Assembly: GCA_040754335.1 (NCBI GenBank)
Contig: JBFMCV010000003.1
Coordinates: 1 to 47,355, forward strand
Direction: 5' to 3'
Origin: Thermodesulfobacteriota bacterium
GTDB lineage: Bacteria; Desulfobacterota_D; UBA1144; Nemesobacterales; UBA2774
DNA: 47,355 bases
Shown: positions 23,461 to 41,685 of the stretch, piece after piece
Position numbering within the stretch: position 1 is the first letter of the stretch
Layout: every line of letters starts with the position of its first letter
The notes under the pieces: generated by a model
Seen by the model: the letters and a program-made list of their open reading frames with translations, nothing else
Told to the model about the DNA's origin: nothing
Databases searched by the model: none
Made by a program: the position numbers and the translations under genes

Positions 23461-23467
23461 ATAGGGC

Positions 23468-24391: not shown

Positions 24392-24401
24392 GGCTCGTTA
24401 A

Positions 24402-25001
24402 TTATAATCGAGTTCTCTCTATCTTTAAGTCTTCGGGTGTATTCACGTTACGGAACATGAGCTCAGGGTCGCCGAACCGGGATATTTCATCTTCGGCGAG
24501 GAGCCTTACTCTGAGGCCGCTGCCTTCATCCGCGAGGAGATGCGGAGCGGGCTTTCTCCCTTCTTCGAAGAAGCGCTCGATCACCGGTATCACCTTCCGG
24601 GAGTAAACCGCGATTAGAGGTTCGGGATAGCCCTTCCATACCGGCATTAGGACGTCGAAGCCGCCGGATACGTCTTTCATGTATTCGAGCAGCTCCGTTC
24701 TCAAACCGGGCGTATCGACGGGGTTCACTATGCCGCGAGGGCCGGCCATCGTTTTCAAGCCCGTATATATTCCCATCATCGGACCCCTGTCCGAGGCTAT
24801 GTCGCTCACCGATATTACACCGTCGAACTCGATGTTCTCTCCTTCCGCCGTGACCGCGATCACCTCGTCCGCAACGCTCTTCAAGCGCTCAACCGCTATA
24901 TCAAGGAACGTCCTGCCGTCGTATTCGAGGTATCTCTTATCGACGCCCATCCTCTCCGATTTCCCGCCTGCGAGCAGAATTCCCGAAAAAATCTCTTTCA
25001 T
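24402..25001 (-). CDS. mobA: Molybdenum cofactor guanylyltransferase
   Basis: MobA adds GMP to Mo-molybdopterin to give the guanine-dinucleotide cofactor that nitrate reductases need. The 199-residue protein begins with the nucleotide-binding signature LLAGGKSERMGVDKRYLEYDG and has NPVDTPGLRTE (metal-binding region) and the family ending VNTPEDLK. The bis-MGD nitrate reductase in the same cluster is the obvious client. It lies 75 bases downstream of the alginate-export-type porin gene, same strand. Confidence 0.93.
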   Translation of the reverse strand: MKEIFSGILLAGGKSERMGVDKRYLEYDGRTFLDIAVERLKSVADEVIAVTAEGENIEFDGVISVSDIASDRGPMMGIYTGLKTMAGPRGIVNPVDTPGLRTELLEYMKDVSGGFDVLMPVWKGYPEPLIAVYSRKVIPVIERFFEEGRKPAPHLLADEGSGLRVRLLAEDEISRFGDPELMFRNVNTPEDLKIERTRL

Positions 25002-25076
25002 CTCATCTATCCGGTATATATGACCCGAATAGAATTATACCCAAGCCAGAGGCGGATATGCGCGATTCAACCCCCC

Positions 25077-26555: not shown

Positions 26556-26619
26556 TTAATTCTCCTCCCTTTTTATACCATTTTTACAGACCGGTGTCCT
26601 TCTTTGGTGTTGAGGAGAG

Positions 26620-26682
26620 GGGATAGCATTATTCATCTCGATGCTATCCCTTCACTCAGAGGGAATCTCGGCATGATTCCCT
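26620..26682 (-). other. Tandem hairpins in the leader of the porin gene
   Basis: Two perfect stems lie between the nitrate transporter and the porin: an 8-bp stem (AGGGAATC 26660-26667 with 26675-26682, 7-base loop) and a 10-bp stem (GGGATAGCAT 26620-26629 with 26641-26650, 11-base loop). In transcript order the 8-bp stem comes first. Neither is followed by a U-run, so they may stabilise or process the transcript, or act as an attenuator. Confidence 0.55.
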
Positions 26683-26716
26683 TCACAAAGGAGATTTGGC
26701 TAATTTACGGGTAATG

Positions 26717-28054
26717 CTAGGAGCCGACTGCGGCTGTTTTCTGAGCCTGCGCCTCCTGGAACGCCCTCTTCTCCTCCTCGATCGTCTCAGGTGAGAACCT
26801 GATGAAGAACACGAAGAGCGATGCTATCACGACGCAGAGCCCGAGATAGAAGAGCCCGCCCTGCATAGTGAGGCTTTCAGACCTGAAGAGAAAACCGGCC
26901 GCAACCGCGCCGGCATTCCCTCCCGCGCCCACTATACCCGCAACGGATCCGAGGGCCTTCTTGTTAAGGAACGGCACTACTCCATACGTCGCTCCGTTAG
27001 ACATCTTGACGAAGAGGCCGAAGACGACCATGGAGATTACAGCGATAACGAGGGCGGACATCTGTGAAAAGACGACGAGTGCGATACCTTCGAGGAACAA
27101 TACGGCGAAGAGGAACCTCACTCTCCCCGTGAGTCCGTGGCTTTTCGCAAACTTGTCGGAGAAGATTCCGCCCAGCGCCCTCGCGAATATATTCATGAGA
27201 CCGAAGAGGCCCGCGATTATGCCCGCCGACTCCAGGCTTAACTCGAACCGGTCGAAGAAGTAGAGCGCCGCTATGTTGTCTATCGTTATTTCGACACCGA
27301 AGCACGCAGCATAGACGACGAAGAGCGCCCAGACGCGGGGGTCTTTCGCTGCAAGGAGAAAAGAGCCGTGCTCCTTGTCCTCCGCTGCCGGCATCTCGCC
27401 CCTCGCGCGGAGCTCTTTGTAGTTTCCGTCGGGAGCGTCCTGTGTGAAGAAGTAGTAAGCTATACCAGTGAGAAATAATACCACTCCGGGAACCACCATC
27501 GCGAGTCTCCATCCGAGGAATTTACCGGCACCCAGGCTGACTATGGCCGCGAATATGAGCGGCATGACCATTTGCGTCACTCCGCCTCCGAGGTTGCCCC
27601 ATCCCGCGGTAGTCGCGTTCGCAGTACCCACAACGTTCGGGGCGAACATGATGGAGGTGTGATATTGAGTGATTACGAACGACGCGCCTATCATGCCTAT
27701 CGCGAGTCGGAAGAGGAGGAACGTCTCGTAGCTGTGGGAGAGACCTATACCCATGACCGGCAGAGCCCCAACGAGGAGGAGCCATGTGTATGTAAGGCGC
27801 GGGCCGTACTTGTCGCAGAGCTTTCCGACGACAAGACGGCATAGAATCGTAATGGCGACGGATGCGATTATCGTGTTGCCTATTTGCGTCTTCGTGAGGC
27901 CGAGGTCTTCCCTCACTACAGCCATTAACGGCGCTATTCCGAACCATCCGAAAAAGCAGAGGAAGAACGCGAACCACGTCATGTGAAATGCCCGCATTTG
28001 CGGTGTGCTCAGGCTGAACAGGCTGATACGTGCAGCTTTATTTTTGATCTCCAT
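26717..28054 (-). CDS. Nitrate/nitrite transporter, NNP family (MFS)
   Basis: The 445-residue inner-membrane protein has 12 predicted transmembrane segments and both NNP signatures: AGWGNLGGGVTQ in TM5 and GAGGNAGAVAAGF in TM11, with FRLAIGMIGASF between. NarK/NasA-type carriers bring nitrate into the cytoplasm by symport or exchange for nitrite. The gene has its own sigma-54 promoter (28103-28118) with paired upstream palindromes (28212-28245). A GGAGGC ribosome site precedes the ATG. Given the assimilatory reductases around it, nitrate uptake for growth is the likely role. Confidence 0.95.
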   Translation of the reverse strand: MEIKNKAARISLFSLSTPQMRAFHMTWFAFFLCFFGWFGIAPLMAVVREDLGLTKTQIGNTIIASVAITILCRLVVGKLCDKYGPRLTYTWLLLVGALPVMGIGLSHSYETFLLFRLAIGMIGASFVITQYHTSIMFAPNVVGTANATTAGWGNLGGGVTQMVMPLIFAAIVSLGAGKFLGWRLAMVVPGVVLFLTGIAYYFFTQDAPDGNYKELRARGEMPAAEDKEHGSFLLAAKDPRVWALFVVYAACFGVEITIDNIAALYFFDRFELSLESAGIIAGLFGLMNIFARALGGIFSDKFAKSHGLTGRVRFLFAVLFLEGIALVVFSQMSALVIAVISMVVFGLFVKMSNGATYGVVPFLNKKALGSVAGIVGAGGNAGAVAAGFLFRSESLTMQGGLFYLGLCVVIASLFVFFIRFSPETIEEEKRAFQEAQAQKTAAVGS

Positions 28055-28102
28055 AAGTTTAGCCTCCCTGGAACATTTGCTTATTTCTTATTAGTCCTTA
28101 TT

Positions 28103-28118
28103 GGCAATTGCTGTGCCA
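28103..28118 (-). promoter_or_regulatory. Sigma-54 promoter of the nitrate transporter gene
   Basis: Read on the minus strand: TGGCACAGCAATTGCC, with GG-N10-GC spacing and an almost ideal -24 box. Expected start near 28092, about 38 bases before the transporter ATG. Confidence 0.85.
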
Positions 28119-28211
28119 AGTTGACCGCCCATATTGTGCAAGCGCAAAATACCTAAATGTATCGAGAATTTTCGGAATGATGATGACAGGAGATAAAAGG
28201 GAATTTAAAGC

Positions 28212-28245
28212 TTACAATTTTGTAAATACTCTTACAAAGTTGTAA
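28212..28245. promoter_or_regulatory. Paired palindromes, candidate enhancer sites for the sigma-54 activator
   Basis: TTACAATTTTGTAA (28212-28225) and TTACAAAGTTGTAA (28232-28245) are two 14-base inverted repeats with centres exactly 20 bp apart. A weaker third half-site TTAC begins at 28252, again 20 bp on. They lie about 127 and 147 bp upstream of the predicted transporter start, a normal distance for enhancer-binding proteins. The same core (ACAA-N2-TTGT) is paired at 40076-40109. Confidence 0.75.
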
Positions 28246-28269
28246 ATATGTTTACTTGCAATGAGTGTC

Positions 28270-30144
28270 TTAATCCTCGACGGAATAGCCGCTGCCCCTG
28301 GGTACGAGCCTGTAGGTTTTTATTTCGAGTGACGAATCCGTATGACACCTTCCGGTCTTGACGTTGAACCTGTTGCCGTGTCCGGGACAGACCACGTCAT
28401 CTCCGAGCAATGTCCCGGAGGATAATCTATTCCCCTGGTGCGGGCAGAGATTTTGCGTCGCATAGAGTTCGCCCCTGATCTTGAAAACGGCGATCTCCTT
28501 GCCGTCGATAACGACGGGCTTGCCCGACCCTTCCGTTATGTCGTCCGCGTGAATGACGGAGACGGCTTTCGCTTCGGCGCTTTCGATAACGGAGGGCCCT
28601 AGTTCTTCGGGGTTAAGGAGGTTGTCTATCTGTTTTCTGAATTTTTCGAAGGCACCCCATTGAACGAGCCCTTCGAGAACGAACGTGAGCTCGCTGCACG
28701 GGACGTTCTCCATTATCTTTATCGCGGGCTTCGTTTCGGGACCCGACTCCCCGCCGATAAAAATATCGACCGCATCGACGATCTCGCCATTCACCTGTGT
28801 TTTCTTGCCGAGGAGCCCTATGTCGGCGATCGTATGGTTGCCGCAGCCCGAAGGACAGCCGGACCAATTGATGCTCCTGGGATTAAAATTCGGGAGAATG
28901 CTCTCCAGCTCGCGTCCTATCTCGAACGCGCGGTTTTTCGTCTCTATGAGAGCGAGGTTGCAGTACTCGCTTCCGGAGCAGCTCGTGATGCTCCTCATGA
29001 CGGCCGAGGGATAGGGACTCAGCTCCTGGAGAAGCCTTTCCGAGAGTACGCGGTTCACGTTTTCATCCGGTATATTAGGGATGATCAGATTCTGCCGCGC
29101 CGTCAGCCTGACCTCTCCGTTACCGTAGAGCGCAGACAACCTCGCCGTCTCGGCGAGCTGCTCTCCCGTAATCTTGCCTACCGGGACGAGCATCCCGATA
29201 TAGTTGAGCCCGTGCTGGAGCTGGGGGAATACTCCTATATGGTCGGTCTCGTGGCCGAACCTTTCGTCCTTCCCCGCACTCTCGAGAGCAACCCCCAGGC
29301 TGATCTCAACCGCCTCTCTCAGCTTTTCCACTCCCCATTCGTCAATCAGGAACGAGAGCCTTGCCTTGTTCCTCGCCGCTCTCGGACCGTTGTCGCGATA
29401 AATGACCGCGATCGTTTTACACAGCTCCGGCGCTTCGCGTGGCGTCACGAATACGTCGAGCGGCCGGGATTCCTTGAACCCTCCCGAGCCGTTTTTGCCG
29501 CCGACGAAAACGTTGAACCCTTGAACGTTTTTACCGTTCATGATTTTGCTCGCGGGAACGAGAGAGATGTCCTGAGTTGCGGAGTTCGTGCAGTTCTCCT
29601 TGCACGCCGTTATCGTCACGTTCATCTTCCGCGGGAGGTTCGAGTATTCCCTGTTGCCGACGAAAATGTTGTTGAACCGTTTCACGACAGGGGAGGCCTC
29701 GAAGAGCTCAGTCCTCGAGATACCGGAGACCGGACAGCCCACGACGTTTCTGATGTTGTCCATCCCTGTCTGGAGAGTGAGGAGTCCGGCATGATTAAGG
29801 AGCCTGAGGACCTTCGGGACATCGACGATCTTTATCCATCTGAGCTGAATCTGCTGCCGCGTCGTTATATCCGCTCTTCCGCGGCCGATGTTATTCGTTA
29901 TCCACGCTATCGTCTCTATCTGCTGTGAAGCGGCTATGCCGTTAGGAATCCTTATCCTGACCATGAAATAGCCCGGAGTGTGCTTTCTGAAGAACGTGCC
30001 GAACCACTTTAGCCGCTCGAGATCGTCTTCGCCAATTGACTCGAACCCCTCGAGAGCGAACTTTTCGATATCCGCCCCCACATCGAGCCCGTCCTTCTCG
30101 AGCTTGATCTTCTCTATCCTGTTGAGCTTCGTTTTCTTCGGCAC
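28270..30144 (-). CDS. nirA: Ferredoxin-type nitrite reductase (siroheme) fused to a Rieske domain
   Basis: Residues 1 to about 500 are a NirA/sulfite-reductase hemoprotein with two half-domains; the siroheme-[4Fe-4S] cysteines are CSGSEYC (about 387-393) and CPSGC (about 429-433). Residues about 525-624 form a Rieske-like domain (CPHQGN and CPGHGN, two Cys-His pairs) of the NirD type, ending soon after. The enzyme should reduce nitrite to ammonium with six electrons, the Rieske part replacing a separate NirD. Family members can also act on sulfite, but the nitrate context favours nitrite. The start is GTG at 30144 with a GAGGGGG ribosome site upstream. It lies 31 bases after the moaD-moaE gene. 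The cytoplasmic electron donor is probably ferredoxin fed by the FprA-like reductase nearby. Confidence 0.93.
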   Translation of the reverse strand: MPKKTKLNRIEKIKLEKDGLDVGADIEKFALEGFESIGEDDLERLKWFGTFFRKHTPGYFMVRIRIPNGIAASQQIETIAWITNNIGRGRADITTRQQIQLRWIKIVDVPKVLRLLNHAGLLTLQTGMDNIRNVVGCPVSGISRTELFEASPVVKRFNNIFVGNREYSNLPRKMNVTITACKENCTNSATQDISLVPASKIMNGKNVQGFNVFVGGKNGSGGFKESRPLDVFVTPREAPELCKTIAVIYRDNGPRAARNKARLSFLIDEWGVEKLREAVEISLGVALESAGKDERFGHETDHIGVFPQLQHGLNYIGMLVPVGKITGEQLAETARLSALYGNGEVRLTARQNLIIPNIPDENVNRVLSERLLQELSPYPSAVMRSITSCSGSEYCNLALIETKNRAFEIGRELESILPNFNPRSINWSGCPSGCGNHTIADIGLLGKKTQVNGEIVDAVDIFIGGESGPETKPAIKIMENVPCSELTFVLEGLVQWGAFEKFRKQIDNLLNPEELGPSVIESAEAKAVSVIHADDITEGSGKPVVIDGKEIAVFKIRGELYATQNLCPHQGNRLSSGTLLGDDVVCPGHGNRFNVKTGRCHTDSSLEIKTYRLVPRGSGYSVED

Positions 30145-30175
30145 CTTGCAATCCCCCTCTGTCTTGGTCTATAGA

Positions 30176-30958
30176 TTAAACAGGCAATTTGTATGCCGTT
30201 TTTTCATGATAGTTATAATCGGGATCCGATATGATATCCGGGTCGTCCGGGGTCTCGGCGTCCGGTCCGATGAGCTTCCCGTCCTTCCAGCTTTCGGTGC
30301 CGTCGTCGTAGTTCTCGAGCTTCCATACGGGCACCTTCGATTTCACTTCGTCTATAATAAAATCAATGCCGGCAATGCTTTCCTTCCTGTGCCCGGAGGA
30401 AACCGCTACGAAAAAAGCTGTCTCGCCGACATTGACCTCGCCAATCCTGTGCCTGAGCACGACATCGTGGAGTCGGAATTTCTCCATCGCGGAGAGGACG
30501 ATTTTATTTATCTCCCTCTCCGCCATCTCTTCATAAGCCGAATAAGTGATAGATACCACTCTTTTGACCGCCTTTCCCGTGCTTGATTTTTGAGCAGTGT
30601 GGTCATTTCTTACAATCCCCTCGAAAATGAGGAAAGAGCCTGAGCTCTCTCTCCGTACCCGCAATACGCTCTCGACGAATTCGAACGTTATCGGGCTATT
30701 CGTGAGGTATGTGAAATTCCCTCCCGAGATCGGGGGCAGGAGAGCGACCTCGTCCGAGTCCCCGATCCTGTCATCGTCCTGAGAGACGGATTGGTTTACG
30801 ACGACCCGGAATGTTTCCGCACTTAACTGCGGATGGATGCCGAATAGCGATGCCGTCATTTCCCTGACGGAGCAGCTTTCCCGGTCGATGCAGAGGGTCA
30901 GCTCCTTTACGCCTGCGATCGACATCAATCTGCCGAACAAGAGCACGTTAACTTTCAT
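30176..30958 (-). CDS. MoaD-MoaE fusion (molybdopterin synthase, both subunits)
   Basis: Residues 1-80 are the ubiquitin-like sulfur carrier MoaD, ending in the conserved LLPPISGG (Gly79-Gly80); residues about 85-235 are MoaE, with SGHRKESIAGIDFIIDEVK and PVWKLE holding the catalytic basic residues. Together they add two sulfurs to cyclic pyranopterin monophosphate. Because MoaD must carry a free C-terminal Gly-Gly thiocarboxylate, the fusion must be cut after Gly80 to work, as reported for mycobacterial MoaX. A GGAGTGAG ribosome site precedes the ATG, which overlaps the stop of the molybdate transporter gene by 11 bases. The acidic tail after residue 235 is unusual. Confidence 0.92.
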   Translation of the reverse strand: MKVNVLLFGRLMSIAGVKELTLCIDRESCSVREMTASLFGIHPQLSAETFRVVVNQSVSQDDDRIGDSDEVALLPPISGGNFTYLTNSPITFEFVESVLRVRRESSGSFLIFEGIVRNDHTAQKSSTGKAVKRVVSITYSAYEEMAEREINKIVLSAMEKFRLHDVVLRHRIGEVNVGETAFFVAVSSGHRKESIAGIDFIIDEVKSKVPVWKLENYDDGTESWKDGKLIGPDAETPDDPDIISDPDYNYHEKTAYKLPV

Positions 30959-32138
30959 TTCTCACTCCGAGCGACCTCCTTGCTATGGGTTCGAGATAGT
31001 AAATCAACGTGCCTGCCAGAAGACCGTAGACGTATCCGTTCTTGATAAAGACGCATATAAAGCCGACTATGAGGGCTATTATGAGCTCTTTCGAGCCGGC
31101 CGTTTTTTTAATAAATTTAGTCAGGGCAAAACCTTCGACCGAGAGAATGACGCCCAGAACAGGGAGCGGGAAGAGCGCGTTGATCGACGAGTAATTGCCT
31201 GAAAGAAAGAACGCGATAAGCAGGTATAAAGAGCCGTAGATGAGGAGGGTCCCGCCCGTCCTTCCGCCGAAAGCGTAATGCCCCGCGAGCCCGCCCGATC
31301 CGTGGCATACAGGGATTCCGCCGAATAGCGGGTTTACGATGTTCATGAGCGAGTAAGTGTTCGCGAGCTTTTTCACACTCAGCTTTTTCTCGGGGAACAA
31401 ATCATCTGCGAGCTTTTTCGTCGCGGCGAGAGCATTCGTTATGGAGAGCGGGAGCTGCGGAAGGCCGAGGACGACAAAGCCCGTAAGTATGTCGTATAGT
31501 GAAGGTGCATGAATTTGCGGAAGGGATAAATGCATGGCCGGGAAGTTAGGCATCGCCCCGGTGTTAAAGATTAGAGAGTAAAGCAAGCCCAGAAGTATGA
31601 CCGCGAGCGCCGGAGGGTATCGCCTGTTTCCAAGAAGCAAGAATACAATTACCAAACCCGCTGCGGCTAGAATAATGCCCTCGAGACCCTGCGACGGAAT
31701 GTAATCCGTGAGCGCAAGAAGCAGCAAGTTCAGACCGAGGCCGAACTGGATTCCCCTTACGACGGAGCTCGGTATGAAGTCGTATATCATTTTTATCAGG
31801 CCGGTAAGGTTGAGGAAAAGCATCACGACGCCGAGCCCGATGCCCGCAGCAAGTATCATGTCGGCTCCCAGGCGCTGGGATATGGCCATGACTGCTATTG
31901 CTTTCAACGGTTGGACGGGCATCGGGATGCCGTAGAAGAGTCCCGAGAAAATTTGTGTAGCGCCGAACATGACGAACACGCTGACAGGGTCGAGACCTGA
32001 TGCGAGCAAAATACCAACGATGAGCGGCAGGTCAGTGCCTATGTCTCCGAAAGCGCCTGAGAGCTCGTTCCTGTCTATCCTTATGCGGGACCGAAGTGCT
32101 CCGTTAAGCGAGCCAAGCATGAACATTGTATGATTCAT
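30948..32138 (-). CDS. Molybdate (sulfate-like) transporter, MOT1 family
   Basis: The 396-residue polytopic protein carries the MOT1 signatures: GAFGDIGTDLPLIVGI near residue 30 and GGIPVCHGSGGLAGHYAF near residue 275. It has about 10 to 12 membrane segments. Plant and algal MOT1 proteins are high-affinity molybdate carriers; the location between moaA and moaD-moaE fits molybdate uptake for the nitrate reductase. Sulfate cannot be excluded. An AGGAGG ribosome site lies 8 bases before the ATG at 32138. Confidence 0.9.
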   Translation of the reverse strand: MNHTMFMLGSLNGALRSRIRIDRNELSGAFGDIGTDLPLIVGILLASGLDPVSVFVMFGATQIFSGLFYGIPMPVQPLKAIAVMAISQRLGADMILAAGIGLGVVMLFLNLTGLIKMIYDFIPSSVVRGIQFGLGLNLLLLALTDYIPSQGLEGIILAAAGLVIVFLLLGNRRYPPALAVILLGLLYSLIFNTGAMPNFPAMHLSLPQIHAPSLYDILTGFVVLGLPQLPLSITNALAATKKLADDLFPEKKLSVKKLANTYSLMNIVNPLFGGIPVCHGSGGLAGHYAFGGRTGGTLLIYGSLYLLIAFFLSGNYSSINALFPLPVLGVILSVEGFALTKFIKKTAGSKELIIALIVGFICVFIKNGYVYGLLAGTLIYYLEPIARRSLGVRNES

Positions 32139-32142
32139 CCGG

Positions 32143-33147
32143 TCAACCTCCTATTTGCGACATTGTCCTCGCTGGCTTTACAAAGCCCGGTTTGTTTATG
32201 AGGTGGCCGCGCTCTTTTTTCGACACCGCGTCGACGATTACGTCCCTGATTTCCAGATCGCTCGCGCCTTCTCTCAGGAGATTCCGCAGATCCGTTTCGC
32301 CTAAAGAGAAGAGGCAGGTCCTCAGCTTGCCGTCGGAGGTAATCCTCACGCGGTTACAGTGCCCGCAGAAGGGATTGCTTACCGAGCTGATGAACCCTAT
32401 CTCGCCCGAGCCGTCTTCGAATAGGTAGCCGTCCGCAGGCTCGCTCCCCCCGAGACGCTTGGGAATAAGACTGAGCCTGAGGCCGTGCTCTATCGTCTTG
32501 ATTATTTCGTCTTGAGTTATTACCTGCTCGATGTTCCAGTCATCCCCGCCGCCTATGGGCATGTATTCGATGAACCGGATTATGTAATTGCTCTTCCGCG
32601 CGAGCTCCGCAAAATCGAGTATTTCGCCGTCGTTGAACCCGCGTATTAAAACGACGTTTATCTTGATGGGGCTAAGCCCGATACGCGCGGCTTCTGCGAC
32701 ACCGCGGAGCACCTTATCGTAGTAGCTCCTCCTGGTTATTTCTGCGAAGCTGTCGCTCCTGAGTGAATCGAGGCTTACGTTGATGCGCTTGAGCCCCGCA
32801 TCCGATAACGCTCGAGCTTGCTCCTCAAGAAAATAGCCGTTAGTAGTGAGGGATATGTCTCTCACATTCCCGACGCCTGCGAGCATAGCCACGAGGACGT
32901 GAAGCTCCTTCCTCAGAAGCGGCTCGCCGCCCGTGAGGCGTATCTTGTCGACGCCGAGGCCGGAGAAAATTTCTGCGAGTCTTGCGATCTCCTCGAAGCT
33001 CAGTATCTTGTCTTTCTCCAGCCACACCATGCCTCGGGCGGGCATGCAGTACTTGCAGCGGAAGTTGCATCTGTCCGTTACAGAGATCCTCAGATTATTG
33101 ACCACTCTTCCGAACGTGTCTTTAAGCAGAATTTTCGATTCCTCCAT
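32143..33147 (-). CDS. moaA: GTP 3',8-cyclase
   Basis: MoaA is the radical-SAM enzyme that starts molybdopterin synthesis by rearranging GTP. The N-terminal cluster is CNFRCKYC (Cys27, 31, 34), the C-terminal cluster is NPFCGHCNRVR...RTCLF, and the protein ends in the diglycine IGG that members need. The start at 33147 shares one base with the stop of the nitrate reductase gene (TAATG), so the two are translationally coupled. The frame stays open further upstream but that part lies inside the nitrate reductase gene and has no MoaA character. Length is 334 residues. Confidence 0.95.
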   Translation of the reverse strand: MEESKILLKDTFGRVVNNLRISVTDRCNFRCKYCMPARGMVWLEKDKILSFEEIARLAEIFSGLGVDKIRLTGGEPLLRKELHVLVAMLAGVGNVRDISLTTNGYFLEEQARALSDAGLKRINVSLDSLRSDSFAEITRRSYYDKVLRGVAEAARIGLSPIKINVVLIRGFNDGEILDFAELARKSNYIIRFIEYMPIGGGDDWNIEQVITQDEIIKTIEHGLRLSLIPKRLGGSEPADGYLFEDGSGEIGFISSVSNPFCGHCNRVRITSDGKLRTCLFSLGETDLRNLLREGASDLEIRDVIVDAVSKKERGHLINKPGFVKPARTMSQIGG

Positions 33148-36100
33148 TAATGCACCGGTTTTACCGCGCGCAGAATCTCCTTTACCTCTTCGAGACAAGT
33201 GCCGCACGTGACCGCGACCTTGAGCCGCTCCTTGAGCGCTTCGATGCTGCTGCTCCCGTTCTTTACGGCGAGCGTTATCTCGTCCTCGGTCACGCACATG
33301 CAGGAGCATACGACTCTCCCCGAAGGGAGCTTTTCTTTGAAATTCCCCGAGATGAGAGTGTCTCTATACTTCGAGATATCGGAAGCGCTCCGGGCGAGCG
33401 CCAGCACTTCCTCGGCCCCTCCGGTGTCCCCGATATAGAATCCGCCGACTACGCGGTCACCGCGCACCACTATCTTTTTGTATATCGATTGACCTTTGTC
33501 TAAAAACGTGAGCACATTCGACTTTTCATCGTCGGCGTTGAACTGTCCGAATGAAATTATGTCGAGCCCGAGGATATGGAAGCGGTTCGCATCGACCGAT
33601 TCAGTGTAGCGCGCGGTCGGGTCGCCGCTAACGTGTCTCGCCAGAACGTCCGCCTGCATCGCGAGCAAGTCGGTGTCGTGCGTGAGAACGCCCTTGACCT
33701 CAGCCGTTTTCCCTATGGCGTGTATGTCGGGGATGTTAGTCTCGAGCTGCTCTCCCGCGACTATACCTTTATTGATGAGGAGACCGGTTTTGAGCGGCAG
33801 GTCGAGGTCGGGCCTCATGACGGATTCGATGAATATAAGGTCGGCGCCTATTTCCCTGCCGCGCCCGATCACCACTTTCCTTATGCCGTCTCTTTCTATT
33901 ATCTCTTCGATCTCGGCGCCGAGTATTATATTTATACCTCTGCGCGTGAGCTTGTGAAAAATAAATTGAGAGCCCGCTGAATCGACATACTTGTCGAGGA
34001 GCATGTTGTCGGGGTCGATTAGATAGACCTCCTCGGCGCCCCGTGATTTCAACAGATCGGCGGTCTCTATAGCGGAGGGCCGCGAGCCTATCACGACAAC
34101 TCTCCCGAGGACGAGCTCCCTCGCGATTATCCTCTTAGCATCTTCGAAATCGCGTATGGGTCTTATACACTCGGATGAAAACCCTTTCACGGGCGGCAGG
34201 TACGTCCTCTTTCCCGGCGCAAAAACGAGCTTGTCGTATGGAAGCGCTTCTCCGTCCGCAAGCTCTACCATCTTTTCGCCGGTTCTTACGTTATTCGGGA
34301 GTCTCCCGTCTACCCTTATCCTGCCGTTGGGGATGTTCTCAGCTGTGGTAAGAAGTGTTATATCGATTGCGGGATTGATGTCGTTGATTTTGTGAGCGAG
34401 CTCGAGCGCGGAGGGGTCGTTCCCAATTATCAGCACTCGGGACTTGTCGTCGAACGATTTCTTCTCTACCCTCACGGCGCACGCCTTGAATTCCGGCTGC
34501 TGTGAGTAAGGGTCTATGGCATCGAGGGTGAGAAGGTTTGCCCTGCCGTTATTCGCGAGGAGCTTCCCCCAGTGAAACGGGAGGAATACCGTGCCTTCCC
34601 TGACCTTGTCCGTCACCTTGCACCTCACGGTCGCTTTACCCCTCCGCGACTCGACCAGCGTGAGATCGCCCTCGCGGAGTCCGTACTTCCCGGCATCCAC
34701 GGGATTAATTTCGAGCACGGGCTCGGGTTCGTTCTTGGTGAGGCTCTCGACCTTTCCCGTCTTCGTCATCGTGTGCCACTGGTCCCTTACGCGCCCTGTA
34801 GTGAAGACGAGCGGATATTCGGGGTCGGCGGTCTCCTCCTGCGGGTTGTAATGCACGGACAGGATTTTCGCCTTCCCCGTGTCGGTATGGAATTTACCGT
34901 CCGTGTATAGCCTGGGCGTTCCCGGATGCGTCTCATCGGGGCAGGGCCACTGGAGAGGGCCTGTATTTATCAGTCTCTCGTACGTCACGCCCGTGATATC
35001 GACGTCGCGGCCCCTGCTCAACTGCTTATATTCATCGAAGACATCCTCAGCGCGCTCGTAACCGAAATGCGCGCCGAAGCCCATCTTATGTGCGAATTTC
35101 GTGAATATCCGCCAATCGGGGAGAGCCTCACCCGGGGGATCGACCGCTTCCGAGACGTGGGATATCCTCCGCTCCTGGCTCGTCATCGTCCCTTCCTTCT
35201 CGCTGAAGCCGGCCGCGGGGAGAAGGATGTCGGCGAATATGCTCGTATCCGTCGGGTGGAATATGTCCTGCACTATGACGAGCTCGGCTTTCCGGAGCGC
35301 GTCTTCGACTTTCGATCCGTTCGGGAGCGACACGACAGGGTTCGTGCATATTATCCATACTGCTTTTATCCTGCCTTCATTTATGCCGTCGTATATCTCG
35401 ACCGCGGTGAGCCCTTTTAAAGGCGAGAGTCCGTCCGTGCCCCATCTCTCTTCTATCTCTTTCCTATGTACTTCGTCAGCCATGTAGCGGTGTCCGGGCA
35501 GGAGGTTGGCGAGACCGCCTGTCTCACGGCCGCCCATTGCGTTTGCCTGACCCGTGAGGGAGAATGGGCCCGCGCCAGGTTTGCCGATGTTTCCCGTAAC
35601 TATGGATAGATTTAATAGCGCGTTGTTCTTGTCCGTGCCGGAGCTGCTCTGGTTGAGACCCATAGCCCAGAAGCTCATCGCCGCGCTCGCTTTTCCGAAT
35701 GCGAGAGCAGCTTCCGTAATGAGACTAGAAGACACGCCGCAGATCTCCGATACTTTTTCAGGCGGGTATTCTTTCACCGTATCCTTGAGATTTTCGAACC
35801 CTTCCGTGTGCGTATCGATGTAGTCGTGATCGACGAGACCGTTTTCGATTAGAACGTGAATCATGGAGTTGAGAAGGGCAACGTCGGTGCCGGGCTTTAA
35901 CGGTATGAATATATCGGCTATGCCCGCGGTAGGCGTCTTCCTCGGATCGGCAACGATTATCTTTAAATCACTCCCCTTTTTCTCTTTCTCCTCCGCCAGC
36001 TGCATGAACACGACAGGATGGCAGTAGGCCATGTTCGAGCCGATGATGAATACGCAGTCCGTGTGCTTCAAATCTTCATAAGAGCATGGCGGGGCGTCCA

Positions 36101-36563
36101 CGCCGAACGCGCGCCTGTAGCCCATCACGGCAGAAGACATGCAGAGGCGGGAATTCGAGTCGAGGTTGTTGACTTTGAGGAAACCCTTAGAGAGCTTGTT
36201 GACGACGTAATAGTCTTCCGTGAGAAGCTGGCCGGATATATAAAAAGCTATCGACTCCGGTCCGTAAGTATTAATGAGACTCTTGAATTTACCGGCGATC
36301 CTGTCGAGAGCTTTATCCCACGTAGTCGAAGTGAACGGGGAGAGCCTGGAGTCCCTGATTAAAGGGTGAGTGAGCCTGTCTTTCTTATGGATCGTGTGAT
36401 GGAGGTTGAGCCCCTTCGAGCAGAGCTTTCCCCTGTTCGAAGGATGGCCGGGATCGCCCCTAACGCCAAGGACTCTGCCTCCTCCCGTCTCCAGTATCAC
36501 GCCGCATCCCACGCCGCAGTAAGGACAAACGGTCCTGTGCTCGGTCTTCTGATTCAGCTGCAA
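33147..36563 (-). CDS. Assimilatory nitrate reductase fused to flavoprotein-like and BFD modules
   Basis: The 1138-residue protein begins with a Mo-bisMGD oxidoreductase (about 1-695) that has a [4Fe-4S] motif Cys13, 16, 20 and 48 (CPYCGVGCG...GKLC) and NasC/NarB-like sequence (GQANAMGGRETGGLANLLPGH). From about 700 to 1070 is a fold like the NirB/NasB NAD(P)H flavoprotein, but its cofactor motifs are altered: IGNDPSA (about 712), FAPGKR, IGSRPSA (about 823) and AIGKTAE (about 949). The end is a BFD-like [2Fe-2S] domain (CSCMC 1086-1090; CGTC 1120-1123). The start is TTG at 36563 with GGGGAG 7 bases upstream, 47 bases after the previous stop; the longer open frame overlaps that gene. It reduces nitrate to nitrite in the cytoplasm. 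Confidence 0.92.
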   Translation of the reverse strand: MQLNQKTEHRTVCPYCGVGCGVILETGGGRVLGVRGDPGHPSNRGKLCSKGLNLHHTIHKKDRLTHPLIRDSRLSPFTSTTWDKALDRIAGKFKSLINTYGPESIAFYISGQLLTEDYYVVNKLSKGFLKVNNLDSNSRLCMSSAVMGYRRAFGVDAPPCSYEDLKHTDCVFIIGSNMAYCHPVVFMQLAEEKEKKGSDLKIIVADPRKTPTAGIADIFIPLKPGTDVALLNSMIHVLIENGLVDHDYIDTHTEGFENLKDTVKEYPPEKVSEICGVSSSLITEAALAFGKASAAMSFWAMGLNQSSSGTDKNNALLNLSIVTGNIGKPGAGPFSLTGQANAMGGRETGGLANLLPGHRYMADEVHRKEIEERWGTDGLSPLKGLTAVEIYDGINEGRIKAVWIICTNPVVSLPNGSKVEDALRKAELVIVQDIFHPTDTSIFADILLPAAGFSEKEGTMTSQERRISHVSEAVDPPGEALPDWRIFTKFAHKMGFGAHFGYERAEDVFDEYKQLSRGRDVDITGVTYERLINTGPLQWPCPDETHPGTPRLYTDGKFHTDTGKAKILSVHYNPQEETADPEYPLVFTTGRVRDQWHTMTKTGKVESLTKNEPEPVLEINPVDAGKYGLREGDLTLVESRRGKATVRCKVTDKVREGTVFLPFHWGKLLANNGRANLLTLDAIDPYSQQPEFKACAVRVEKKSFDDKSRVLIIGNDPSALELAHKINDINPAIDITLLTTAENIPNGRIRVDGRLPNNVRTGEKMVELADGEALPYDKLVFAPGKRTYLPPVKGFSSECIRPIRDFEDAKRIIARELVLGRVVVIGSRPSAIETADLLKSRGAEEVYLIDPDNMLLDKYVDSAGSQFIFHKLTRRGINIILGAEIEEIIERDGIRKVVIGRGREIGADLIFIESVMRPDLDLPLKTGLLINKGIVAGEQLETNIPDIHAIGKTAEVKGVLTHDTDLLAMQADVLARHVSGDPTARYTESVDANRFHILGLDIISFGQFNADDEKSNVLTFLDKGQSIYKKIVVRGDRVVGGFYIGDTGGAEEVLALARSASDISKYRDTLISGNFKEKLPSGRVVCSCMCVTEDEITLAVKNGSSSIEALKERLKVAVTCGTCLEEVKEILRAVKPVH

Positions 36564-36610
36564 AATTCTGCTCCCCGTTTTATATTGGATTCGACAGCTT
36601 TCTTGCCCCC

Positions 36611-39600
36611 CTACGCGTCCACCTCCATATCTCCTCTGGGTTTCGCCATGCAGATGAGCGCCTCTCCCGACGCTATCTCTTCGGGTGTAATCCCCTCGAC
36701 ATTGCCCTGCTCGAACCTGCCCCTCACCCTGAGCTTGCAAGTCCCGCAGACACCCTGCTGGCAGCTGAACGGCAAGCTAAGGCCCTCGTCGAGCCCTTTT
36801 TGCAGTATCGTTTCGGTGCCTTTGACGGTGACGGTCTTCCCGCTCACCTTGAATTTCACGGAGTATTCTCCTTTTGCCAGGTCCTTCGATTGGACAGCCT
36901 CGTTCTCCGCGACTTTTTTCCGGGCTTCGATCGCCTCGGGCGAGTCGAGCATGCCCGCTATTATCTCGGCGAGGTTGTCGATTCCGATTCTGTACACGAA
37001 GTCGACGAAGGGCTCTCCGTCATGTCTCATCTCGATATAAGTCCTGAGGACAGTATCCACGGTATCGTTCACTTCATTGGCGGCTATATTTCTTCTCACC
37101 ACTTCTCCCACCCTGGCTGAGCCGTTCATGTGGCCGCCCAGGTATAGAAAATATTTTCCCGCGCTCCCCGAAAGTCCTATGTCCGCAACCTGGTGCTGCG
37201 CGCAGCTGTTCGGGCAGCCGGATATTTGTATGCGCAACTTACTGATCTGCTCGTCGTCTTTATAGTCTTTCCCGCCTATGTGTCTTATGAGCGAATCCGC
37301 GGTCCCCTGCGAGTTGGAAACACCCCAGACGCAGAAGGTCGTACCCGGGCAGGCCATCACGTCGAGCACGGAGCCCGAGCCCTTAGGAGCGAGCCCGATC
37401 GCGCCTAGCTCCGCGAGCAGCTTAGGGAGCTTTTCCTTTCTTACCCACTGGAGCTCGAAATTCTGCTGCATCGTGTTCTGGATTTTTCCGTCGGCGTAAT
37501 CGAGAGAGAGCCTCGCTATCGTTCTGGCCTGCGCCGCGGTGAGCTCTCCGAGCGGCACTCTCACGACCACCCTGTAATAGCCCTCCTGCTTCTGCGGGTA
37601 GATTCCCTCCTTATCGACGTCACCGTGTAAAGACTCATCGTTTTTAACTTCGACGCCGTGAAGCTGCGGGAATTTCGAGTAATAGATGCTCGAAAACTCT
37701 TCGCGAAATTTATCGAAGCCCCAGAGCTCGACGAGCTCTTTCAGGCGGGGGTTCCTGCTGTCGCTTATGTTCCCGTGTCTTGAATAGATTTCTATTATCG
37801 TCCTGAGCACCGGTACCGTCTGCTCAGGGGGAATGAAATCGATTAGCCGTTGAGATAGATGAGGCTTCGAGCCCAGGCTTCCTCCTACCCACACTTCGAA
37901 GCCGGGAATAACCGAGCCCTCGTGCTCGGCTTCGACGGCGACGTAACCTATATCGTTTACCATCGCGTGCGAGCGGTGTTTGGGACTGTTAGCGAAGTAG
38001 ACGTTCATCTTGCGGGGCAGCCTTTTATTTATCGAAAGCGAGTTCGTAACTATGTAGTCGTGAGCTACTTTCACCCAGGGCCTCACGTCCAGTATCTCGT
38101 CCCCACCTATACCGGCTTCCTCCGAGCACGTGACGTTCCTGATCGCGTGCCCGCACGCTGAGCGAGTGGAGAGTCCGACCTCTCTAAGCCGCTCGTCGAT
38201 CTCGCCGTCGTTTATGGTCGTCCAGTGGAGCTCCAGCGCCTGACGCGTCGTGATGTGCACCCAGCCTCCGTATTTCCCGGCGAGCTCCGCGACAGTCATG
38301 AGCTGGGGCGCTGTAACCTGTCCGCCGGGGACCCTGATGCGCCTCATGAAGTAGCCTTCCTGCTTCTGGCTGCAGTATCCGTGCGACTTAAGCCTAAGGA
38401 AATCGCTCGGGTCGATTGATGCGAAGCCCTCCTGCCTGTAACGCTCGAAATCGACTTCCATACCTTTCGATTTAATATCCGCCGGGTTGATTTTGCCGAG
38501 CCACGGGCTCTTGACCGTGCGGGGATGCAGGTCCTGAGAAGCGTAAATCGGGCTCTCAGGGGTAAGGGGAACGTCTTTGAGCGGAGGCTCATCGGCGGTA
38601 ATATCCTTCTCAGGAGTTTTCGCGGCGGAGTTGTCGGCAGCCGCACCCAGTAATAATTCATGCCTGTTCCCGTTCACACCGGTTCTATCAATTATCAATT
38701 TGAAAATCTTTCTGTAGTCTTTGATGTCTCCGAGGAATATTGCGCCTACGATGTGGTTGTCCCTGAAAACGAGCTTCTTGTATATGCCCCGCTCCGGGTC
38801 GGAATAGACGAGGTCTTCGCACCCCTCCCCGCCGTTGAAATTCCCGACCGAGACCAGGCTCACGCCGGCTACCTTGAGGACGGCGGATACGAGGGACCCC
38901 TCGTAGACGGACTCGCCGTTCCCGGCGATGGAATCGGCGGCGACGCGCGCCTGCTCGACAAGAGGGTCGAAGAGTCCGTAAACCATGCCCCGGTGCTCGA
39001 CGCATTCGCCGAGAGCGTAGATGTTTTCGTGGCTCGTCTGAAGGTAATCGTTGACGACTATCCCTTTCTTCACCAGGACCCCGGCTTTTTTCGCGAGCTC
39101 GACGTTGGGCCTTATGCCCGTACAGACAAGGACGAGGTCGGCGTCTAGTATTTCACCCGACGCCAGCCTGACCGCTTCCGCTCTCTCGTTACCGAGTATC
39201 TCCTCTGTGACTGCCTTCATCCTGAACTTAATCCCCATCCTCTCGATCAATCTTTCGAGCATGAGACCGGAATCGTAATCGAGCTGCTGCTCCATCAGGT
39301 GATCGACGAGGTGTATAACGGTCACGTCCATGCCGTTATCCTTAAGCGCCTTCGCGGCTTCGAGACCGAGGAGTCCCCCGCCTATCACGACCGCGTTCTT
39401 CTTGTATCTCGACACCTCGAGCATCGACCACACGTCGTCGATAGTCCGGTACGCGAATACGCCGCTCTTCTCGATCCCTTTTATAGGCGGGATGAAAGCA
39501 ACGCTCCCAGTTGCGATTACGAGCTTGTCGTAAGCTGACGAGAACCCTTTCTCGGAGCGGACTCTCCTACTCGCGGTATCTATCTCGGTCACGCGCGAGC

Positions 39601-39841
39601 CGGTGTAGAGCTTCACGCCGTTCTCCTCGAACCATTTCCTTTTTTTCAAATAGAGCTGGGCGAAGCTCTTCTTCCCCGACAGGACCTCGGACAGGAGAAT
39701 CCTGTTATAGCTGTGGTCGGGCTCCTCGCCGAAAACGACGAGCTCGATATTTTCGTTCTTTTTTCTGAGAATGTGCTCGACGGCGGACTGTCCCACCATC
39801 CCGTTCCCGATGACTACTACTCTCTCCTTCGATAAACTCAT
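36611..39841 (-). CDS. NirB-like flavoprotein / siroheme reductase / [2Fe-2S] ferredoxin fusion
   Basis: This 1076-residue protein combines (1) a NirB-type NAD(P)H flavoprotein head (about 1-400) with intact GNGMVG at 12-17, IATGS, GGGLLG near 155 and ALGECVE near 277; (2) a linker at about 405-455; (3) a nitrite/sulfite reductase hemoprotein (about 470-980) with siroheme-[4Fe-4S] cysteines in CPGTTFC (about 829) and SGCPNSC (about 875); and (4) a plant-type [2Fe-2S] ferredoxin at the C-terminus (CQQGVCGTC about 1020-1030 and LIC about 1063). The BFD domain usual in NirB is missing. It should carry electrons from NAD(P)H to siroheme in one chain, most likely for nitrite. It heads an operon with the nitrate reductase; a GGGAGAAG ribosome site precedes the ATG. 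Confidence 0.92.
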   Translation of the reverse strand: MSLSKERVVVIGNGMVGQSAVEHILRKKNENIELVVFGEEPDHSYNRILLSEVLSGKKSFAQLYLKKRKWFEENGVKLYTGSRVTEIDTASRRVRSEKGFSSAYDKLVIATGSVAFIPPIKGIEKSGVFAYRTIDDVWSMLEVSRYKKNAVVIGGGLLGLEAAKALKDNGMDVTVIHLVDHLMEQQLDYDSGLMLERLIERMGIKFRMKAVTEEILGNERAEAVRLASGEILDADLVLVCTGIRPNVELAKKAGVLVKKGIVVNDYLQTSHENIYALGECVEHRGMVYGLFDPLVEQARVAADSIAGNGESVYEGSLVSAVLKVAGVSLVSVGNFNGGEGCEDLVYSDPERGIYKKLVFRDNHIVGAIFLGDIKDYRKIFKLIIDRTGVNGNRHELLLGAAADNSAAKTPEKDITADEPPLKDVPLTPESPIYASQDLHPRTVKSPWLGKINPADIKSKGMEVDFERYRQEGFASIDPSDFLRLKSHGYCSQKQEGYFMRRIRVPGGQVTAPQLMTVAELAGKYGGWVHITTRQALELHWTTINDGEIDERLREVGLSTRSACGHAIRNVTCSEEAGIGGDEILDVRPWVKVAHDYIVTNSLSINKRLPRKMNVYFANSPKHRSHAMVNDIGYVAVEAEHEGSVIPGFEVWVGGSLGSKPHLSQRLIDFIPPEQTVPVLRTIIEIYSRHGNISDSRNPRLKELVELWGFDKFREEFSSIYYSKFPQLHGVEVKNDESLHGDVDKEGIYPQKQEGYYRVVVRVPLGELTAAQARTIARLSLDYADGKIQNTMQQNFELQWVRKEKLPKLLAELGAIGLAPKGSGSVLDVMACPGTTFCVWGVSNSQGTADSLIRHIGGKDYKDDEQISKLRIQISGCPNSCAQHQVADIGLSGSAGKYFLYLGGHMNGSARVGEVVRRNIAANEVNDTVDTVLRTYIEMRHDGEPFVDFVYRIGIDNLAEIIAGMLDSPEAIEARKKVAENEAVQSKDLAKGEYSVKFKVSGKTVTVKGTETILQKGLDEGLSLPFSCQQGVCGTCKLRVRGRFEQGNVEGITPEEIASGEALICMAKPRGDMEVDA

Positions 39842-39974
39842 ACTATCTTCTCCCGTTCATTAACAACGGAGCCCTGAACCCCGGCCGATATTGAGGGGCC
39901 CTGACTTATGGCATTAGTCTGTCAATGTATTGAGGATTCGCTAAAGCAGAGAAACTCATACGGTTATGTGAAGA

Positions 39975-39990
39975 TGCAACTTGTATGCCA
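39975..39990 (-). promoter_or_regulatory. Sigma-54 promoter of the nitrite/nitrate reductase operon
   Basis: Read on the minus strand: TGGCATACAAGTTGCA, GG-N10-GC spacing, one base different from the activator gene's promoter over 16 positions. Expected start near 39965. Confidence 0.85.
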
Positions 39991-40075
39991 TTTTTCTTCT
40001 GCAGTGCACAATGAAGAAAAAGCCTGATTTACGGTTGAGAGCAGGAAAGTAATTGAATATAAGATTTATGAAAGG

Positions 40076-40109
40076 TTACAAATTTGTAAGTTTGTCGACA
40101 AAATTGTTT
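40076..40109. promoter_or_regulatory. Paired palindromes, candidate enhancer sites
   Basis: TTACAAATTTGTAA (40076-40089) is a perfect 14-base palindrome. Twenty bases on, CGACAAAATTGTTT (40096-40109) keeps the core ACAA-N2-TTGT. They lie about 118 and 138 bp upstream of the predicted operon start. Core, pairing, 20-bp phase and distance match the sites at 28212-28245. Confidence 0.72.
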
Positions 40110-40245
40110 ACAAAATGACACTCCAAGGAATTACTTTTTAAGATAATCCCCCTTGGACAGGCTCAAGACCCCGCCGTACGGCCGAGGGACCTGAGCCCGG
40201 TTATTACCAGCTTCTTGTGATAGTCAGTGCGCACATGCAAAGAGG

Positions 40246-41685
40246 TCAGCTTTTGTCCGCACCGAAGTGCTCCGTCACATACCCCGTTCCCTTGAGCGCC
40301 GTAAATATCTCCTCGATCGACGTGAATTTGAGGCGCGGTCTGCCGCATTCACCGCCCCTTGCTATCTCAAGGCTGTCGATCTTGAGCCAGTCTTCATACG
40401 TTATATAGTGAGGCTGTCTTTCTCTAATTAATTCTTCCACGTGACCGTTGCCCGTACTATTCGGCTTGAGCGAGATTCCGTTCTTCACGTCCTCTATTAT
40501 GCATGCCGCCGTTTCGGCCGAATCCGTTTTATTCGTACCTATCACTCCCGATGCCCCCCGCTTTATCCATCCGGTCGCGTAGAGGCCAGGAATAGGAGCG
40601 TTGGTTCCGGGGTCTATAATCCTTCCCTTTTCATTGTGTATCGTTCCCCATTTATCGTTGAAAGGGATGCCGGGAAGGGGTACCCCCTGATAGCCGATCG
40701 ACCTGAAAACTAGGCCTGCGGGTATCTCTATGCGCTCGTCCGTCGATCTCGATTTTATGCTCCCGTCCTCAGACCTGTAGAGCTCGTTTTTCATGAGGCG
40801 GAGCGTGCCCGCCTTTCCCTCGCCATTGTCGACGATCTCGGCAGGGGAAAGGAGGAACCTCAGGTGGAGCCTCTTCCGTTTATCAGAAACGGAGTTGGCG
40901 GCGTATTCCCTTAGTATCTCAATTCTCCTCTCCACGGCCTCGTCGCCGCTAGCAGAGATTTCCTCGAGCGAAAGCTCGTCAGGCTCGACCTCGTCCGTGA
41001 GCGCGAGAGGGACTGCGTCTTCGAGCTCACCCAGCTCGCGGAGCTCGGGGTTCGTGAACGAGGCCTGTGCGGGACCTCGGCGGCCGATGATGTAAATGTC
41101 CCTGATTTTGCTATTGAGGAGAGTATTGAGGGCGTGCTCGGCGATGTCGGTCGCTCTGAGCTCTTTCTCCGAAAGGCAGAGTATCCTTGCGGCGTCGATC
41201 GCGACATTGCCTACTCCGATTATCACGGCGGTCTCGCAGGAGAGGTCGAATTCGAGGTCCCTGTAATCGGGATGACCGTTATACCAGGCGACGAATTCGG
41301 TCGCGGGGTGGCTCCCATTCAAATCTTCGCCAGGGATATTCATACGCCTGTCGGTCTGCGCGCCTGTCGCGAACACGACGACGTGATAATGATTTTTGAG
41401 GTCTTCCAAGTGTATGTGCTTGCCATATTCTACGAATCCCGTGAACCTGAACCGCGGGTCTTTAGCGATCTTGTCGTAGACCCTCGTCACGGATTTAATC
41501 TTCTGATGATCTGGAGCGACCCCGTTCCGCACAAGCCCGTGAGGCGTAGGGAGCCTGTCGTACATATCGATCTCAGCGTCTATTTCCTTGCTCTTTAACA
41601 GGTGGTCGGCAGCGTAAAAACCGGCAGGGCCCGAACCTATAACGGCCACCCTGATATGATTTGAGTTCGATTCGATATTGCTCAA
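40246..41685 (-). CDS. Ferredoxin-NADP reductase, FprA (adrenodoxin-reductase) type
   Basis: The 479-residue flavoprotein has the FAD motif VIGSGPAGFYAADHLL near the N-terminus, the NADPH site VIIGVGNVAIDAARILC near 155, and the family segments FRSIGYQG and GWIKRGASGVIGTNKTDS. FprA-type enzymes move electrons between NADPH and ferredoxins. In this cluster it can supply reduced ferredoxin to the NirA-Rieske enzyme, or to the attached ferredoxin domain of the NirB-like fusion. A C-terminal extension (about 425-479) follows the usual end. The start is TTG at 41685, 7 bases after a GGAGG ribosome site. It has its own sigma-54 promoter (41773-41788). Confidence 0.92.
   Translation of the reverse strand: MSNIESNSNHIRVAVIGSGPAGFYAADHLLKSKEIDAEIDMYDRLPTPHGLVRNGVAPDHQKIKSVTRVYDKIAKDPRFRFTGFVEYGKHIHLEDLKNHYHVVVFATGAQTDRRMNIPGEDLNGSHPATEFVAWYNGHPDYRDLEFDLSCETAVIIGVGNVAIDAARILCLSEKELRATDIAEHALNTLLNSKIRDIYIIGRRGPAQASFTNPELRELGELEDAVPLALTDEVEPDELSLEEISASGDEAVERRIEILREYAANSVSDKRKRLHLRFLLSPAEIVDNGEGKAGTLRLMKNELYRSEDGSIKSRSTDERIEIPAGLVFRSIGYQGVPLPGIPFNDKWGTIHNEKGRIIDPGTNAPIPGLYATGWIKRGASGVIGTNKTDSAETAACIIEDVKNGISLKPNSTGNGHVEELIRERQPHYITYEDWLKIDSLEIARGGECGRPRLKFTSIEEIFTALKGTGYVTEHFGADKS

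Follow-up and report, generated by a model that had tools for sequence, protein, structure and literature searches.

The NasA enzyme of Klebsiella has a flavoprotein subunit, and to our knowledge neither the Klebsiella nor the Paracoccus catalytic subunit has been described with a flavoprotein fold between its molybdenum part and its [2Fe-2S] domain. In Paracoccus, electrons are described as moving from the NADH site of NasB via NasG to NasC, and in Bradyrhizobium japonicum a stand-alone flavoprotein, Flp, is needed for growth on nitrate and not for growth on nitrite (PMC4724949). The stretch of DNA analysed here, referred to as the window, comprises 47,355 nucleotides and is part of a 562-kb contig in a 3.26-Mb genome of the class Dadabacteria. 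Its nitrate reductase locus resembles the Bradyrhizobium Flp/NasC and Paracoccus NasB/NasG/NasC systems in having a separate flavoprotein and a catalytic subunit with a C-terminal [2Fe-2S] domain (PMC4724949). Unlike the window protein, B. japonicum NasC is not described with a flavoprotein fold between the Mo part and the [2Fe-2S] domain (PMC4724949).

The domain order of the window protein recurs in a fused 'nitrate reductase' that occurs in Bacteroidota (for example in Hymenobacter volaticus, WP_245126148.1, and in Spirosoma and Persicobacter) and in the phylum of one further genome, G332. In a single chain these proteins carry a 4Fe-4S/Mo part, a NirB-like FAD/NAD fold, Rubredoxin_C and a BFD domain. 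In contrast to the window protein they have all FAD and NAD motifs and a full FAD lobe, and their complete flavoprotein neighbours are NirB proteins with a BFD domain.

By NCBIfam, the flavoprotein family nearest to the module in the window is the flavoprotein half of NirB (TIGR02374, 204 bits against a cut-off of 578), from which it differs by lacking the FAD elements and the siroheme part. A fold like that of the module is also found in the FAD subunit of the Aromatoleum aldehyde oxidoreductase (8c0z chain E), there paired with a tungsten enzyme, and in ferredoxin reductases (3fg2, putidaredoxin reductase), whose FAD elements are gone in the window module. These proteins are FAD enzymes. Fused reductases, two-component reductases and the GR fold are all known; what appears to be new is a member that has lost its flavin and yet persists, folded, within a reductase that presumably still works. 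The literature searched describes no nitrate reductase that contains a flavin-less module or a pseudoenzyme, and nothing on such a module turned up under lost-FAD disulfide-reductase folds or Dadabacteria nitrate reductase; neither result is proof of absence from print.

A nitrate reductase with a fused flavoprotein-like module

The reductase (33147..36563, minus strand) is a NapA/NasC-like protein of 1138 aa. Its open frame starts with TTG at 36563, preceded by GGGGAG, and its stop codon TAA (33147-33149) overlaps the ATG of moaA (MoaA, 32143..33147, minus strand) in TAATG. The earlier note had placed a Mo-bisMGD part, a NirB-like fold and a BFD domain in this frame, and both the coordinates and this architecture were borne out by the frame and its Pfam domains. 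The catalytic part (residues 1-696; 34476..36563, minus strand) contains the 4Fe-4S cysteines, the Mo-bisMGD domains and Cys141, followed by Met, as the Mo ligand; it matches Molybdop_Fe4S4 (8-59), Molybdopterin (63-491) and Molydop_binding (585-696). The pseudo-flavoprotein module (residues 697-1071; 33351..34475, minus strand) consists of an FAD lobe, an NAD lobe and a Rubredoxin_C-like C-terminal lobe (33351..33605, minus strand), with matches to Pyr_redox_2 (761-954) and Rubredoxin_C (993-1054). The BFD [2Fe-2S] domain (33168..33314, minus strand; Fer2_BFD, 1084-1132) has its CxC...CxxC cysteines, all four of them, and matches PF04324 with 39.2 bits against a cut-off of 26. Hence one open frame carries the Mo part, the FAD/NAD-type module and the BFD domain in the order of fused NasC-type reductases.

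The 4Fe-4S cysteines, the Mo ligand and the BFD cysteines are all retained. At the Mo site the window reads RLCMSSAV, which aligns with RLCMASAV of NapA (2jio), i. e. Cys followed by Met, whereas three aligned formate dehydrogenases have X/C-His at this position. Cys-Met at the Mo ligand is a mark of nitrate reductases, and formate dehydrogenases have Sec/Cys-His. The NCBIfam profile for the formate dehydrogenase alpha subunit (TIGR01591) is nevertheless passed, with 668.8 bits against a cut-off of 666.25, i. e. by 2.5 bits. We read this as a broad-family match, because of the Cys-Met at the Mo site and the nitrate/nitrite gene context. With NarK, nitrite reductase, molybdate transport and Moco genes around it, the enzyme is, judging by these features, most reasonably a nitrate reductase of the NasC/NasA/NapA group. 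Its score with the equivalog profile for assimilatory nitrate reductase NasC (NF047855) is 595 bits, below the cut-off of 1100, and the protein is not claimed as a NasC equivalog.

Loss of the FAD-binding elements

The FAD dinucleotide loop GxGxx[G/A] is replaced by GNDPSA (34407..34424), the ATG motif by FAPGK (34209..34223), the NAD loop GGGLLG by GSRPSA (34071..34088) and the FAD-binding Gly-[Asp/Glu] by Gly-Lys (33708..33713); in addition, roughly 29 residues are deleted at 34310..34311, so that the FAD lobe lacks its cofactor loop and helices, the YNR region included (all minus strand). The strings IGNDPSA, FAPGKR, IGSRPSA and AIGKTAE, from which the earlier note had concluded that the cofactor sites seem to be lost, are thus all present.

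Two orthologues of the full reductase were found, one in genome G007, which belongs to the same family as the window genome, and one in genome G034. Compared with the window module, the module of G007 is 64% and that of G034 42% identical. In all three proteins the same FAD elements are altered: the dinucleotide loop, the beta-2 Glu, the YNR loop, the ATG motif and the terminal G-[D/E]. The FAD lobe is 26-29 residues shorter in 3/3 Dadabacterial modules than in the neighbouring intact FAD domains and the fused relatives. In the AlphaFold2 model of the neighbour the deleted stretch forms two short helices, and the YNR motif beside the deletion is unrecognisable in all three modules. The Pyr_redox_2 match reflects this loss: it begins at profile position 80 in the window and at positions 75-80 in all three modules, compared with position 2 in one scanned intact fused protein and in the neighbours.

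In a motif table of 66 aligned sequences, the Dadabacterial modules keep 0, 1 and 1 of five cofactor elements, and the positive entry of the window module for YNR is an alignment coincidence at the deletion. All five are present in the 12 complete fused relatives and in the three neighbouring flavoproteins. The terminal G-[D/E] is found in each of the 62 non-Dadabacterial homologues that reach this position (63 were examined, one of which ended with its contig); in the three Dadabacterial modules it is replaced by Gly-Lys, Gly-Pro and Gly-Arg.

Since two orthologues break the same FAD elements and the deletion is common to all three proteins, the loss of motifs is not due to chance. A sequencing or assembly error is ruled out by the same FAD-site losses in two further genomes. 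The earlier claim that the dinucleotide motifs are lost stands for the FAD site throughout the clade. It does not stand for the NAD motif, which is broken in the window and in G007 and reads GEGPLG, intact in pattern, in G034; therefore only the loss of the FAD site is clade-wide. From the sequences we consider it very probable that the module no longer binds FAD, and it is best filed as a derived variant and not as a working flavoprotein. Because the FAD elements are broken in all three modules and the NAD loop is intact in G034, loss of the FAD site probably came first, in the common ancestor, and was followed by that of the NAD loop, as far as three sequences can tell. For annotation this is a warning: the module scores well as Pyr_redox_2 and matches NirB, and it should not be named an NADH-dependent flavoprotein.

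Intact relatives and ancestry

The fused reductase with the pseudo-module occurs in 3 of 57 Dadabacteria-class genomes, a small set of uncultured bacteria. When residues 580-1138 were searched by tblastn against 72,556 plasmid records, 11 of these matched at least 80% of the query at a single place. Four of the 11, from Hymenobacter, Spirosoma and, twice, Persicobacter, have the protein as a single open frame of about 1171-1189 aa in which every motif is present. The actinobacterial plasmid matches H5, H7, H8 and H10 (80-99% query coverage) turned out to be separate genes or frames and not fusions; H6, H9, H11 and H12 were left out of this examination. In a sample of 386 genomes over the domain Bacteria, in which fusions were judged by eye from the frames and the query ranges, the fused form was seen in the three Dadabacteria and in G332 alone; since no more than 3 candidates were scored per genome, misses are possible. 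With four fused cases, again allowing for misses, fusion is ruled out as a common bacterial state. Within the phylum of G332, 9 of 68 genomes (G332 and 8 others) carry the fused protein; one of them (L072/G421) is cut by a contig end and, being incomplete, counts neither in the trees nor among the 12 complete relatives.

A further genome, G018, contains a stand-alone BFD frame of about 51-61 aa (L034, 5738-5893, minus strand), which is 58-60% identical to the BFD domain of the reductase. No flavoprotein or nitrate reductase was found in the 10-kb stretch around it. As nothing but the stand-alone BFD was found on that stretch, the idea of a decayed remnant in G018 was rejected.

Proteins of the same architecture with intact motifs, which would have counted against the earlier note had they run through the clade, were found solely outside it, and since all 12 complete ones (from Bacteroidota and the phylum of G332) keep every motif, the Dadabacterial form is, on the sequences compared, derived. 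The proteins can be arranged as a series of states, from the intact fused form found elsewhere, via a dead FAD lobe with the NAD loop pattern kept (G034), to the form in which both are dead (the window and G007).

In a 42-row module tree, the three Dadabacterial modules, the 12 fused modules and the three neighbouring flavoproteins each form one group (100/100). The Dadabacterial stem branch has a length of 1.72 in this tree, where its position is not placed, and of 0.35 in the catalytic tree. In the AU test, a grouping of the Dadabacterial modules with the fused modules is compatible with the data (p 0.387). Their grouping with the neighbouring flavoproteins is rejected (p 0.0165), and with it the idea that the module is a recent duplicate of the neighbouring FAD domain. 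The catalytic tree places the Dadabacterial and the fused proteins on one side of a branch, weakly (74/60); constraining the fused proteins with three unfused ones (p 0.336) or the Dadabacterial proteins with those three (p 0.0513) was not rejected in either case, in the latter narrowly. At most, these trees make a single fusion event likely.

The neighbouring flavoprotein and a possible electron route

The gene directly upstream of the reductase (36611..39841, minus strand) encodes a protein of 1076 aa with a NirB-type FAD/NAD domain (1-398), a NirA-type siroheme nitrite reductase (about 440-960) and a plant-type Fer2 domain (999-1068). Its FAD motifs are intact and it has no BFD domain; GNGMVG, YNRILLS, ATG, GGGLLG and YALGE agree with the earlier observation that the adjacent NirB-like protein keeps its motifs. 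An intact, BFD-less FAD domain of the NirB type lies directly upstream of the reductase at all three loci. It is joined to a NirA-type nitrite reductase and Fer2 in the window and in G034, and is a stand-alone protein of 400 aa, without nitrite reductase or Fer2, in G007. Among the 57 class genomes, this FAD domain (E<=1e-60) is confined to the three genomes that have the reductase; the other match to the FAD part is the ordinary NirB of G007 alone.

The situation is different beside the intact fused reductases, where the full flavoprotein neighbour is a NirB with its own BFD domain in 6/6 cases (G332, G419, G422, G416, G409, G418). In Hymenobacter the stretch examined carries a NirB that is incomplete or divided among frames, and no such neighbour was seen at the remaining intact-fused loci on the stretches examined. 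In sequence terms, the Dadabacterial split thus appears complementary, with a flavin and no BFD domain in the neighbouring protein and a BFD domain and no flavin in the reductase.

The interpretation we prefer is that a cytoplasmic fused Mo nitrate reductase in the ancestor of these Dadabacteria came to lack the flavin in its own flavoprotein part. The oxidation of NADH would then fall to the intact NirB-type FAD domain of the neighbouring gene product, and electrons would pass from the FAD of this neighbour to the BFD [2Fe-2S] of the reductase and on via [4Fe-4S] and Mo to nitrate. The dead module would be a folded scaffold that positions the BFD domain and docks the neighbour, and perhaps the blind half of a flavo/pseudo-flavo heterodimer. 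The cofactor sites are read from the sequences, and the electron route and the docking are what we infer. The need for Flp in B. japonicum and the NasB-NasG-NasC relay of Paracoccus are precedents for such a route (PMC4724949). That the neighbouring flavoprotein supplies the flavin in trans is probable, and the whole model, i. e. loss of the own flavin, reduction of the BFD domain in cis by a flavin in trans and a dead module that acts as scaffold or dock, seems on balance the likelier account. Use of the dead module as a dock fits the gene order, the co-occurrence and the absence of a BFD domain from the neighbour, and we would put it just short of an even chance. More tentative still is the idea of a trans-complemented flavoenzyme, in which the dead half would be the obligate dock of a heterodimer with flavin and [2Fe-2S] split between homologous halves. 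The series of states described above shows how a modular redox enzyme could shift NADH oxidation to a neighbour and reuse the old module otherwise. The flavin of the neighbour in the window may mainly serve nitrite, because a nitrite reductase and Fer2 of its own are attached to it.

The main rival to this model is a ferredoxin-fed reductase, in which the module is a mere spacer for the BFD domain and electrons come from reduced ferredoxin, bypassing a direct contact with the flavin of the neighbour. The neighbour's Fer2 domain could be the donor, or else a free ferredoxin, recharged by a glutamate-synthase-beta/FprA-like flavoprotein, which is encoded at 40246..41685 (minus strand) and is a possible second electron source. 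A gene for such a protein also adjoins the G034 locus, two of the three neighbours have a Fer2 domain, and the NasG relay of Paracoccus offers a precedent (PMC4724949). However, in G007 the flavoprotein still adjoins the reductase without Fer2 or nitrite reductase, no FprA-like frame of at least 150 aa is listed on its 13.9-kb contig, and the retention of a whole GR fold is left unexplained. We therefore regard a ferredoxin route as unlikely, although it has to be kept in mind.

Fold and constraint of the module

AlphaFold2 predicts the module as a confident GR-type fold (mean pLDDT 82.3, pTM 0.67, from an alignment of 5 sequences). The intact neighbour reached 73.0 from the same sequences, with its weakest regions at 41-64, 258-266, 280-291 and 309-319. 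The module model superimposes on 3fg2 with a Z of 35.1 and an rmsd of 3.0 over 363 residues, and on 8c0z_E with a Z of 33.0 (Foldseek E 2e-28, 21% identity).

Such a fold could still hold a flavin or a nucleotide in an unusual manner. Besides the confident prediction, the NAD loop pattern of G034 and the retained structural Gly of both lobes would speak for a rebuilt site. Yet in all three modules the FAD elements (0-1 of 5 kept) are lost or altered, as is a stretch of 26-29 residues in the FAD lobe, and the three-way alignment shows no new conserved Cys outside the BFD domain, which makes this reading improbable.

Between the window and G034, identity is 70% in the catalytic part, 28% in the FAD lobe, 34% in the NAD lobe, 52% in FAD-C, 59% in the C-terminal lobe and 47% in the BFD domain. 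The intact fused proteins of G332 and G423, whose catalytic parts are likewise 70% identical, have 50% in the FAD lobe, 59% in the NAD lobe, 62% in FAD-C, 48% in the C-terminal lobe and 65% in the BFD domain, and the neighbouring flavoproteins of the window and G034 have 66, 66, 73 and 59% in the FAD, NAD, FAD-C and C-terminal lobes. By these values, the cofactor lobes drifted within the clade and the C-terminal lobe stayed constrained. The reading frame is open despite synonymous sites that are saturated in most blocks, and because of this saturation dN/dS is unusable.

Of the residues that do not vary among 8 fused proteins, the Dadabacteria retain a similarly low share in every lobe, with 34/72 in the FAD lobe, 39/75 in the NAD lobe, 21/45 in FAD-C and 20/45 in the C-terminal lobe, and the highest share in the BFD domain (24/36); the same residues are retained at 0.77-1.00 in four Bacteroidota (the partial frame NirB_Hymeno was left out of these counts). 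As the C-terminal lobe lost invariants like the FAD lobe did, the loss extends beyond a single site, which speaks against the preferred model. With 59% identity in the clade, the C-terminal lobe was therefore changed and then conserved anew.

A vestige drifting under weak constraint with no role would account for FAD and NAD lobes that diverged faster than those of intact relatives and for a stem branch that is longer for the module (1.72) than for the catalytic part (0.35), but it is very improbable given a frame and fold retained over saturated synonymous divergence, a C-terminal lobe at 59% compared with 48% in the intact pair and BFD cysteines retained, in line with the earlier note, in 3/3 Dadabacterial sequences. 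It is thus supported that the module-bearing reductase keeps its fold, its BFD ligands and its Mo and 4Fe-4S sites.

The surrounding gene cluster

Positions 22252-41685 of the window form a compact nitrate-assimilation and molybdenum-cofactor island. It comprises genes for MoeA, a MoaC-MogA-like fusion and a porin (these three named by eye from sequence), NarK, nitrite reductase, a MoaD(ThiS)-MoaE fusion, the molybdate transporter MOT1, MoaA, the nitrate reductase, the FAD-NirA-Fer2 fusion and the FprA-like protein. Two unusual siroheme fusions are present in the cluster: NirA with a NirD-like Rieske domain (28270-30144) and NirB-FAD with NirA and a plant-type ferredoxin (36611-39841).

In Bacteroidota (L047 7823-9313, L050 7829-9286 and others), the intact fused reductase is followed by a protein of 485-496 aa that has a nitrite-reductase ferredoxin-like half domain and, at its C-terminus, a rubredoxin; the siroheme 4Fe-4S domain PF01077 was not reported in the one such protein that was scanned. 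The island of the window is adjoined by a gene for a GAF and AAA+ activator of the sigma-54 type (20682-22244), and similar GAF/AAA+ activator genes lie near the G034 and G018 loci (all named by eye).
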